64,000 bases of DNA from Spirochaetaceae bacterium. Its GTDB lineage: Bacteria > Spirochaetota > Spirochaetia > Treponematales > Rectinemataceae. Below, piece after piece: positions 17,374 to 57,852 of this stretch (position 1 is its first letter; the number at the start of each line of letters is the position of its first letter). A program made the position numbers and the translations under genes. The DNA lies in contig JANXYO010000021.1 of NCBI GenBank assembly GCA_025356015.1, positions 1 through 64,000 of the forward strand, read 5' to 3'. Below the pieces are notes generated by a model. The model saw only the letters and a list, made by a program, of their open reading frames with translations, had not been told where the DNA came from and searched no databases.

Positions 17374-17390
17374 TTGGCACGCAAGTTGCT
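17374..17390 (+). promoter_or_regulatory. sigma-54 (RpoN) promoter of the sigma factor gene
   Basis: TTGGCACG, four bases, TTGCT: a full match to the sigma-54 -24/-12 consensus (YTGGCACGNNNNTTGCW), with GG at 17376-17377 and GC at 17388-17389. The predicted start of transcription, ~17400, lies just before the GGAG ribosome binding site (17402-17405) of the gene. No comparable match was found elsewhere in the window. Confidence 0.85.
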
Positions 17391-18290: not shown

Positions 18291-19485
18291 GTGGCCCCAT
18301 CCCCTTCACGATCAGGACGACGTCCCCGAAACGCCCCGGGCAGGGCCCCGGCGAAGGCCAGGGCCGGAGCCAGGGCCCGACCCTCCCAGCCTCCGTCTCC
18401 TTCATCCACCTGGGTCTTCATCGCCGCCGCCCTCCTCCTGGTCGGTCTAGCCCTTGGCATTGTGGCCCTGGCCGGATCGGTGGCCCCTGCCGGGGCCCGC
18501 GCCATGCCCGTCGCCGAGGGCGCCCTCGACCCCGGGCTCAGGGACGGCGAGGCCCCCGATGCCGCGGGGATCCAGTCCGAGGCCCTCCGCGTCGCGGCCG
18601 CCTCGGCCGAGTCAGGCGCGCCCGCCGCGTCGGCCGAGTCACCCGCATCGGCCGGGTCGGCCGCCCTGCCCGATACCCGATCCGCGACCGCTGCGGCTCC
18701 CCTGGCTGCCGGACAGAAGCCAGGCGGGACCTCGCCCTCTGCAGTTCCGGCCCACAGGGCCACATGCCGGCCCGAGCCGGCCGCGCCCCCCCATCTGCGG
18801 CCGAAAGCGGCGAAAAAGGTCCTCATATTTGTAATTGACGATGCAGGCAACAATTCCCGCCAGCTCGAGCCCTTCCTGAAGCTGCCCTTCCCCCTCACGA
18901 TCGCCGTCCTGCCTGGCCTCCCCTACAGCCTCGCCGACGCCCATGCGGTGAAGGCTGCCAGCAAGGAGCTGATCCTCCACCAGCCCATGGAGGCCGTCGG
19001 AGGCCAGGATCCCGGCCCAGGGGCGCTCAGGCTCGGGATGGATCCCGCCACGGTCGCCCAGGTGATAGACGCGAACCTGAGGACTGTCCCCGGGGCCGTG
19101 GGCATGAACAACCACATGGGCTCAGCGGTGACCGCCGACCCCCAGCTCATGGATGCCGTCGCGGCGGTTGCAAAAGAGCGGGGAATCTACTATCTTAACT
19201 CACTCACCATCTCCGGCACGGCGACCGCCTTGGCCGCGCGCCGGGAGGGAATCCGATATTGGGAGCGTTCCGTGTTCCTCGACAATACGCCTGATCGGGT
19301 ATCGATATTCCGCGCCGTGGATGATGGCAAGAAACGTGCCACCAAGGGCGGGAGCGCTATCATGATCGGCCATGTCTGGTCGGCAGAGCTCGCCCAGGCA
19401 CTCATGGAACTCTATCCCCAGCTCGTCGAGGAAGGTTTCTCCCTCTCCACCATCTCGCGCTTCATGATCCAGGAAGCCGAGGAGG

Positions 19486-25638: not shown

Positions 25639-25667
25639 TTGACATAGGCCAGTTTGTTGGAGATATT
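25639..25667 (+). promoter_or_regulatory. marR-family gene promoter
   Basis: Perfect TTGACA (25639-25644), 17-bp spacer, GATATT (25662-25667), 7 nt before the ATG at 25675, so a leaderless transcript. The -10 overlaps the palindromic operator. Confidence 0.75.
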
Positions 25668-25687
25668 TGGTTCGATGTCGAACCAAA
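25666..25687. promoter_or_regulatory. MarR operator, perfect 10-bp palindrome
   Basis: TTTGGTTCGA, two bases (TG), TCGAACCAAA: a perfect dyad that covers the end of the -10 box, the transcript start and the start codon. Size and location suit an autoregulated MarR dimer. A degenerate copy lies at 26148-26169. Confidence 0.8.
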
Positions 25688-54958: not shown

Positions 54959-56086
54959 CTAGTTGCCCGAGGCCCCGGCCCTTGCCCAGACCCTCTCGAA
55001 CTCCGCCTCGAATGACCTGGCCATGCCGGGGTCGTCGACGACAAGGAGGTTCTCGTCGTTCTCGGTCTTCGCGTTCTTCGTGAAATTGTAGGAGCCGAAG
55101 GCGACATAACGCCCGTCGACGATGAAGGCCTTGATGTGCATAAGGTAGGCGTTGCCGTCCTGGCGGACCTCCATGCCTGCCTTCTTCATGGCCCCGTACT
55201 CGCTGTATTTGGTGAGCGAGCCCGTCTTCTCGAAAACGCCGCGCACAGCGACGCCGGAGGTGGCACGCTGGAGCACGGCGGCGCCGATGTCGTCGTCGGT
55301 GAAGGAAAAGGCGAGGAAATCGATCTTCTTGCGCGCGCCCGCAATGAGCTCGACGAGCCGGCCCTCGGTCCTGTCCTCGGGGGAGTACCAGACCTCGATG
55401 GGGGCGCCCCCCACGGTAATCCTCTGTGCCGGGCCACCCGCCTCCCTGTGGCCGCCGAACTCCCCCTTCTCGAACATCTTGTTGAAGGTCACCGAATAGC
55501 TCGCGGCCAGTGCCGCCGAATCGATGGCGACGCCCGTGTTGTCGTAGCGGTAGCTGTCGTTTGTGGTGAAGTTCCAGCTTCCCGTCCAGACCGCCCTGCC
55601 GTCGACGACGACGAACTTGTCATGCATGATCCCGCTCGGGTTGCCTGCGACAATGGCTATGCCCAGACCCTTCAGGCTGAGGAAAGCGGGGTTCTCCCTC
55701 GGGTCGTTCAGGATGTCGATGTCGGTCACCATCCGCACCCTCGCCCCCCGGGAATTCGCCGCGGCGAGGGCATCGACGACGAGGGGGGCGTCGAGCTGGT
55801 AGATGGCCACGTCGACTCTGCTCTTGGCCGTGGAGATGAAGGCGGCGAGCTTCTCGTCGAGGCCGCCGCGGTGGGCCGAGACGGAGTCGGGGTAGGCGGG
55901 AGCGGTGAAGTAGAGCCTGTACCAGGAGGGCTCGGCCGCGGCGGGGGGCGAGCCGGGGCCCCGGGGCGCAAGCATCGCGGCCGTCCCGTTTGGGCCGGCT
56001 TTGAGCAGGACGGAGCCGAGCGCGATGCCCGCCGCCGCAAGGAGGAGGAGGGCCGTGAGGAGCAGTGTCTTCCTGTTTGTCTTCAT
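54959..56086 (-). CDS. phospholipase D-like protein with signal anchor
   Basis: 375 residues from the ATG at 56086. N-terminal membrane segment (TLLLTALLLLAAAGIALGS), then two HKD motifs: MHDKFVVVDGRAVWTGSWNFT and MHIKAFIVDGRYVAFGSYNFT. Two copies in one chain make a complete active site for phosphodiester hydrolysis or transfer on lipids or nucleic acids; the extracytoplasmic location favours a nuclease of the Nuc type or a lipid enzyme. Upstream of the alpha-2-macroglobulin gene on the same strand, but that gene has its own promoter. Confidence 0.92.
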   Translation of the reverse strand: MKTNRKTLLLTALLLLAAAGIALGSVLLKAGPNGTAAMLAPRGPGSPPAAAEPSWYRLYFTAPAYPDSVSAHRGGLDEKLAAFISTAKSRVDVAIYQLDAPLVVDALAAANSRGARVRMVTDIDILNDPRENPAFLSLKGLGIAIVAGNPSGIMHDKFVVVDGRAVWTGSWNFTTNDSYRYDNTGVAIDSAALAASYSVTFNKMFEKGEFGGHREAGGPAQRITVGGAPIEVWYSPEDRTEGRLVELIAGARKKIDFLAFSFTDDDIGAAVLQRATSGVAVRGVFEKTGSLTKYSEYGAMKKAGMEVRQDGNAYLMHIKAFIVDGRYVAFGSYNFTKNAKTENDENLLVVDDPGMARSFEAEFERVWARAGASGN

Positions 56087-56164
56087 TGTCCCCCGCCTTC
56101 CCTTCTTCCCGGGAGCCTTGAGCATAGCCGCGAATGAGGGGGTCGGAACAGGGCGGGGACCTCG

Positions 56165-56199
56165 CCCTGGCCCTGGCCCTGGCCCTGGCCCTGGCCCTG
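56165..56199. repeat. tandem hexanucleotide repeat (CCCTGG), 5.8 copies
   Basis: Five perfect CCCTGG units plus five bases of a sixth in the intergenic region before the class V aminotransferase gene. No ORF with support covers it. A candidate for slippage in copy number; it is ~76 bp upstream of the -35 of the downstream gene. Confidence 0.9.
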
Positions 56200-56219
56200 C
56201 GAAAGTTTAATGCGCCTGC

Positions 56220-56249
56220 AAATGGCATTCTGCTGGCAGAATGCCATTT
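56220..56249. promoter_or_regulatory. perfect 14-bp inverted repeat upstream of class V aminotransferase
   Basis: AAATGGCATTCTGC, TG, GCAGAATGCCATTT: 30 bp, all paired, 25 bp upstream of the -35 box (56275). No T run beyond four, so an operator is more likely than a terminator, though in RNA it would fold strongly on either strand. Confidence 0.75.
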
Positions 56250-56274
56250 TACATACCAAATACGCGCGATGCCC

Positions 56275-56304
56275 TTGAAAGGAAGAGCTCTGTTCCCCTA
56301 TAAG
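56275..56304 (+). promoter_or_regulatory. class V aminotransferase promoter
   Basis: TTGAAA (56275-56280), 18-bp spacer, TATAAG (56299-56304). Predicted start ~56311, leader ~75 nt with GGGGAAG before the ATG at 56386. Confidence 0.7.
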
Positions 56305-56385
56305 GAAACTGACTAGAATGGTGCGGATCGCGCTGGGATTCGAAGCCCGCCGCTGCGGCGTCCAGCACAGCAAAAAGGGGAAGAC

Positions 56386-57852
56386 ATGAGCCTTGAATCC
56401 AGCTTTGCTCCATACCGAGCGCGCATCGTCGGAATCGACGCGGAAATGCGGCTTGCCGACGGCAGCAGCCATCCCATCGTCTATGCCGACTGGACGGCCT
56501 CGGGCCGGCTCTACCGCCCCATCGAGGACTTCATGCTCGCCCAGATCGGCCCCCTCGTGGCCAACACCCACACCGAGACCACCTACACTGGTGTCGCCAT
56601 GACCCGGGCCTACCACCGGGCCCGCGAGATCCTCAAGGAGGGGGTCGGCGCCGGGAGCGGGGATTCCCTCATCTTCTCCGGCTTCGGGATGACCTCGGCT
56701 ATCAACAAGCTCCAGCGGCTCATTGGCCTGGGACGGAGGCTGGCCCGCGGTCCCGGCGAGCAGGCGCGGCCAAGGCCCCTCGTCCTCGTGACCCACATGG
56801 AGCACCACTCGAACCAGATCACCTGGGAGGAGTGCCAGTGCGACGTGCGTATCATCCCGCGCGACGAGGCGACCGGCCTGCCCGACCTCGAATGGCAGGA
56901 AAGGATCCTGAAGGAGAATGCCGACCGTCCCCTCCTCATCGGCGCCTTCACCGCCTGTTCCAACGTCACGGGCATCCTCACGCCATACAGGAAGATGGCG
57001 GCCCTCATGCACCGCCACGGCGGCCTCTGCTTCGTCGACTTCGCCGCATCGGCGCCCTACGTCGAGATCGACATGCACCCCGCCGACAGCGACGAGCGCC
57101 TCGACGCGATCACCTTCTCCCCCCACAAGTTCCTCGGGGGGCCGGGTTCCTCGGGCGTCCTCGTGCTCTCGAACGCCCTCTACAAGAATGCCGTCCCCGA
57201 CCAGCCGGGAGGGGGCACTGTGAAGTGGACGACCCCCTTCGGCACCCACCGGTATTTCGAAGACATCGAGTCGAGGGAGGACGGGGGCACCCCGGGATTC
57301 CTCCAGGCGATCCGCGCCGCCCTGGCCATGGAGCTCAAGAAATCCATGGGCATCGCAAAAATCGCCGAGCGGGAGGAGGAACTCAAGGCCATAGTCCTGG
57401 CTGAGTTCAAGGCCGAGCCCTCGGTCATGCTCCTTGACGGCGGCAACATGGACCGCCTGGGCATCTTCTCCCTCTACGCCCCCGGCGAGCACCACAACCT
57501 CATCGTTCGCCTGCTCAACGACCGCTACGGGATCCAGACCAGGGGCGGCTGCAGCTGCGCGGGCACCTATGGCCACTTCCTCTTCGACATCAAGAAGACG
57601 AAGTCCCTCCACATCACCGACATGATCGACTCGGGCGACCTGAGCGAGAAGCCAGGATGGGTCCGCGTCTCCATCCACCCGACCATGACCGACGCCGAAG
57701 CCCGCTACGTCGGCAAGGCCGTCGTCGAGGTGATCAGGAACTACCGCGTCTGGGCTGCCGGCTACGAGTTCTGCAAGGAATCGGCCGAGTTCGAGCCAAA
57801 GGCCCGGACCGCGCGGGGCCCCGACCTCCTCTCGGCCTTCTCTCCCCTCTAG
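56386..57852 (+). CDS. class V aminotransferase, cysteine desulfurase-like
   Basis: 488 residues, PLP-dependent fold type I. Landmarks: YADWTASGRLYRPIE, ANTHTETTYTG, GFGMTSAINKLQRL, THMEHHSNQITWEE, VDFAASAPYVEID and the PLP lysine in FSPHKFLGG (~residue 247), then RGGCSCAGTYGHFL. Longer than IscS/SufS (~400), with an extended C-terminus, and close to the uncharacterised group of class V enzymes seen in Bacteroidetes and spirochaetes. The Cys near RGGCSCAG is where desulfurases hold the persulfide, but activity is unproven. No Fe-S assembly genes are near. Confidence 0.88.
   Translation: MSLESSFAPYRARIVGIDAEMRLADGSSHPIVYADWTASGRLYRPIEDFMLAQIGPLVANTHTETTYTGVAMTRAYHRAREILKEGVGAGSGDSLIFSGFGMTSAINKLQRLIGLGRRLARGPGEQARPRPLVLVTHMEHHSNQITWEECQCDVRIIPRDEATGLPDLEWQERILKENADRPLLIGAFTACSNVTGILTPYRKMAALMHRHGGLCFVDFAASAPYVEIDMHPADSDERLDAITFSPHKFLGGPGSSGVLVLSNALYKNAVPDQPGGGTVKWTTPFGTHRYFEDIESREDGGTPGFLQAIRAALAMELKKSMGIAKIAEREEELKAIVLAEFKAEPSVMLLDGGNMDRLGIFSLYAPGEHHNLIVRLLNDRYGIQTRGGCSCAGTYGHFLFDIKKTKSLHITDMIDSGDLSEKPGWVRVSIHPTMTDAEARYVGKAVVEVIRNYRVWAAGYEFCKESAEFEPKARTARGPDLLSAFSPL

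Follow-up and report, generated by a model that had tools for sequence, protein, structure and literature searches.

Genes and features at the locus

The window, i.e. the whole stretch of 64,000 nucleotides that was analysed, comprises bases 1-64000 of contig C69 in a 4.17 Mb genome of 150 contigs, and the named genomes closest to it are Spirochaetes assembled from metagenomes (L032, L034). A spacer of ∼300 bp separates a leftward phospholipase-D-like (PLD) gene from a rightward class V aminotransferase gene, and the gene order from left to right is PLD gene, hexamer tandem repeat, palindrome, promoter candidate, and aminotransferase gene. The PLD-like protein (open reading frame and translation at 54959-56125, minus strand) carries two PLDc_2 stretches (Pfam PLDc_2, 4.8e-47), and its true start is likely the ATG at ∼56086, from which a signal-like N terminus is predicted. 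The aminotransferase (56386-57852, plus strand) is a class V aminotransferase or cysteine-desulfurase-like protein of 488 aa (Aminotran_5, 6.2e-39); it is SufS-like and has SufS among its PDB relatives (2.4e-27), yet scores far under the NCBIfam cut-offs.

The neighbors scanned, from ∼46.6 to 64 kb, include penicillin-binding protein 1C (scanned with NCBIfam only), alpha-2-macroglobulin, the PLD protein, a MEDS-domain protein, and two sensor histidine kinases; no Pfam HTH domain or recognized DNA-binding regulator was detected among them. Rfam gave no match at E≤1 across 55900-56600, and a full-text literature search yielded no paper recognizable, by title or the start of its abstract, as describing the region. 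Taken together, palindrome and repeat resemble commonplace regulatory or spacer DNA specific to the species, and any role for them is putative.

The palindrome and the candidate aminotransferase promoter

The perfect inverted repeat spans 56220-56249, with 14-bp arms at 56220-56233 and 56236-56249 that are 100% complementary around an unpaired TG centre, such that 28 of its 30 bases pair. The initial annotation had reported both this 30-bp palindrome and a downstream promoter, TTGAAA-18-TATAAG, and both are borne out. The promoter lies at 56275-56304 on the plus strand (TTGAAA at 56275-56280, 18 bp, TATAAG at 56299-56304) and is a good sigma-70-type candidate for the aminotransferase, with a score of 10.5 that is attained by 0.5% of the sequences obtained by shuffling the upstream 150 nt. 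Sites scoring at least 10 occur at 0.064 per kb of strand in the genome sample (335,285 bp at 65.5% G+C, consisting of the window and 18 further stretches). A stricter consensus scan, whose rule demands T as the last base of the -10 element, omitted the candidate. The palindrome ends 25 bp from this promoter, the best in the region, and its centre falls at ∼-77 if the start is taken 7 nt after the -10 element. Such a position would fit an upstream activator rather than a repressor that overlaps the promoter.

Both the palindrome and the hexamer repeat exceed chance in the genome sample. Perfect inverted repeats with arms of at least 14 and a loop of at most 10 occur four times in the 335,285 bp, none with arms longer than 14, while five first-order Markov replicates of the sample produced no arms of at least 14 and a single case of 13. 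None of the four lies inside a gene; the palindrome's three counterparts range from 68 to 85% G+C, and each follows at least one gene end, with gene calls based on a simple ORF and codon-position heuristic. At 43% G+C, the palindrome is the sole one below 50% among the 14 sample repeats with arms of at least 11, as well as the only one of them between divergent genes; one repeat with arms of 10 is also so placed. An AT-rich perfect inverted repeat with 10-bp arms, TTTGGTTCGATGTCGAACCAAA, is present in the window at 25666-25687 and is unlike the usual GC-rich ones.

As RNA, the palindrome folds into a stable hairpin (-18.9 kcal/mol over 61 nt, z -2.84) that could serve as a weak bidirectional terminator insulating the two divergent units, or, should PLD transcription begin rightward of the palindrome, as a hairpin in the 5′ leader of the PLD mRNA. 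Intrinsic bidirectional terminators, as generally described, have in common with the palindrome a stem preceded by an A-tract and followed by a T-tract, and AAA and TTTT flank the stem here. Further points in favor are a terminator-like match on the plus strand (one found, 0.5 expected) and the position of the other three 14-nt-arm repeats behind gene ends. In contrast with such terminators, the palindrome lies between divergent starts, away from any gene end, with modest G+C and a tract of just four T after the stem. The lack of an Rfam match and the poor minus-strand promoter candidates at or right of the palindrome (at most 4.1) also weigh against a transcribed hairpin, which is considered unlikely, albeit plausible.

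The palindrome also contains TGGCATTCTGCTGGCA at 56223-56238, with the GG-N10-GC spacing of a sigma-54 promoter on both strands. The genome encodes an RpoN DNA-binding domain, the spacing is exact, and 9/12 consensus positions agree on the plus strand and 8/12 on the minus strand, relative to a general -24/-12 consensus that was not derived from the source organism. However, 123 sites in the 335 kb match at 9/12 or better, so the match is at background level, and a sigma-54 promoter at the palindrome was rejected as highly improbable. Full 12/12 matches to this consensus exist elsewhere, with one in the window at 17375-17390 on the plus strand (TGGCACGCAAGTTGCT) and another in L134.

The initial annotation proposed a genome search for other copies, with occurrence at many unrelated sites, as in a dispersed repeat, counting against an operator. 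The search found a single copy. The 24-base core occurs at one genomic place at up to three mismatches (on both strands of that place), and the outer arms alone likewise occur once; relaxing the pattern to 18 positions adds two places at three mismatches, which is about chance by estimate. Queried as DNA, the entire spacer retrieved itself, the reverse strand of the palindrome, and weakly scoring hits to the repeat tract and its left flank. Across 394 genomes of the class, the exact palindrome is restricted to its own genome, with three others matching distantly, at three mismatches. Viral contigs held no exact match, and a plasmid search returned nothing matching the palindrome, its one weak match falling in another part of the spacer. 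Such dispersal is thus seen neither in the genome nor in the class or viral contigs, and a REP-like element, defined by many copies, was rejected. That the palindrome is a dispersed repeat, a MITE, or the end of a mobile element is suggested by its palindromic form only; with a single copy, no match in plasmids or (exactly) in viral contigs, and no flanking duplication seen, this origin is largely refuted and scarcely credible.

The hexamer repeat

The tandem repeat consists of 5.83 units of CCCTGG at 56165-56199, a pure run of 35 nt with five full units and 5 nt more, in agreement with the ∼5.8 units first described; TRF calls the array at 56160-56199 with one mismatch. It is the sole run of at least four pure units of any 4-9-mer in the 335,285 bp sample, and four hexamer units at up to two mismatches occur nowhere else in the whole genome. 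The repeat was rejected as PLD coding sequence; the open frame of the PLD gene extends upstream through the repeat without a start codon there. The repeat does precede the palindrome as annotated, but the gap measures 20 bp instead of 21 bp.

The initial annotation further suggested that slippage in the repeat could change spacing. The palindrome has the repeat on its PLD side, away from the aminotransferase promoter, and slippage therefore cannot alter the distance between palindrome and promoter; it could change the PLD side only. A phase-variable promoter of the spacing type holds its repeat between two interacting elements, while the order here is repeat, palindrome, promoter. In the nadA promoter of Neisseria meningitidis, NadR operators flank the repeat, so that repeat number alters operator spacing (PMC2791445). 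In both regions, a promoter is preceded by a simple repeat and by an element resembling an operator; in contrast to nadA, the present region has one palindrome on one side, no second site found on the other, and no repeat between palindrome and aminotransferase promoter. A search for a second operator-like site across the repeat, in nadA fashion, found none on the PLD side (best match 10/24) and none on the aminotransferase side (best match 11/24), both scores being equalled in more than 96% of shuffles.

Read on the minus strand, the array consists of GGGCCA repeats, which constitute a G-quadruplex motif; motifs of this type are no rarity in the sample, with 60 clusters in 335 kb. The array also forms a plain hairpin in the folding model, and with the quadruplex option enabled, the quadruplex is favored only in a 175-nt leader (-83.3 versus -79.4 kcal/mol) and not in a short stretch. 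As the motif, the alternative hairpin, and the preference in the longer leader coexist, a two-part switch can be conceived in which GGGCCA repeats in the PLD leader would toggle between hairpin and G-quadruplex as slippage alters their number, making PLD phase-variable, while the palindrome would isolate the aminotransferase promoter. This arrangement is regarded as very improbable.

Conservation and the origin of the spacer

The orthologue survey covered 91 loci, including the window's own, of which 79 are distinct by their upstream 100 nt, the other 12 being dropped as identical in that stretch to a counted locus; up to 350 nt were scanned, and some loci had shorter upstream sequence. A perfect inverted repeat with arms of at least 10 is found upstream in 4/79 distinct loci, counting the window's own; the repeats of the remaining three bear no sequence relation to the palindrome, and 75 of the 78 further distinct loci lack such a repeat. 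The palindrome is absent upstream of all seven close orthologues (L003-L008 and L032; 74-77% identity), where the upstream sequence differs, and by reading, the hexamer repeat is absent from these seven regions as well. Promoter-like sites near the orthologous starts score 11.5 in L032 and 10.6 in L005; those of L004 and L008 are moderate, and L003, L006, and L007 do no better than shuffled sequence. The PLD gene has weak matches in 5/57 other related genomes, a comparison set with no member of the same genus; its plasmid relatives are below 60% identity, and matches at E≤1e-20 occur in 80/391 other genomes of the phylum sample, the best-scoring one at 40% identity. The differing upstream sequences and the weak PLD matches indicate that the left half of the spacer is lineage-specific. 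In one relative (G002), the sequence immediately ahead of the orthologous aminotransferase contains an 18-bp tandem array of 6.1 units (GGACATAGGCCCTTTGCA; L151:4532-4641) that has no sequence relation to the hexamer array.

These patterns are compatible with a neutral by-product, in which replication slippage built the hexamer array and a template switch turned a quasi-palindrome into a perfect one within an unconstrained, lineage-specific spacer free of selection. Array and palindrome are both perfect and hence probably young, and neither is common to any relative examined; the upstream block varies among the orthologues read, the PLD gene has few and weak matches among the related genomes, and an unrelated array occupies the same place in one of them. 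Template-switch mutation at quasi-palindromes in Escherichia coli is the subject of PMC7202029. Against a neutral origin stands the location of the palindrome, which lies close to a promoter within AT-rich sequence separating divergent genes, a setting otherwise devoid of repeats with arms of at least 11 in the sample. A neutral origin is a genuine possibility that nonetheless leans toward doubtful.

The reading ranked just above it, and above a transcribed hairpin, is that the palindrome is a single, recently evolved operator, peculiar to the species, which lies in a divergent spacer that changes fast and serves a dimeric regulator encoded at an unlinked place; this reading is tentative, at somewhat less than an even chance. 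The initial annotation had likened the palindrome to an operator for a large dimeric regulator, and this is possible since the palindrome is single-copy, non-coding, between divergent genes, and just upstream of a plausible promoter, where an inverted repeat of this length exceeds chance. Other aspects fit less well: the centre at ∼-77 is not a simple-repressor site, conservation at orthologous promoters (0/7) or at regulon sites is lacking, and no Pfam HTH regulator was found among the neighbors scanned. The absence from seven orthologues and of a related site elsewhere in the genome makes a self-controlling regulator a poor fit. Divergent operators of the TetR/MarR type, as usually described, resemble the palindrome in being inverted repeats placed between divergent genes, where the DNA is AT-rich and a promoter is near, but here no linked regulator gene or second site was found, and the arms are unusually perfect and long. 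Perfect symmetry over 28 bases exceeds what most operators need and counts against an operator.

If the palindrome is an operator, the region would be the divergent control region of the PLD-like gene, which is lineage-specific, and of the aminotransferase. The regulator, a dimer whose gene lies elsewhere, would bind at ∼-77, and once bound, may assist polymerase at TTGAAA-TATAAG, influence transcription running left toward the PLD gene, or both; the layout, uniqueness, position, and gene order are observed, and binding, activation, and the promoter served are predictions from sequence. The hexamer array would be a separate, slippage-prone spacer that at most tunes the PLD side. As it stands, the significance is little: a single spirochaete-like genome carries a palindrome of its own and a short repeat. 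Should the repeat prove to vary and to tune the divergent PLD gene, the region would provide an example of repeat-driven variation in a spirochaete-like lineage.

Elsewhere in the window, the top-scoring tandem array spans 18595-18664 and can be described as 2.5 units of 27 bp or 7.8 units of 9 bp. In a further relative (G007, L011), the orthologous aminotransferase is seemingly broken by stop codons into two overlapping pieces.
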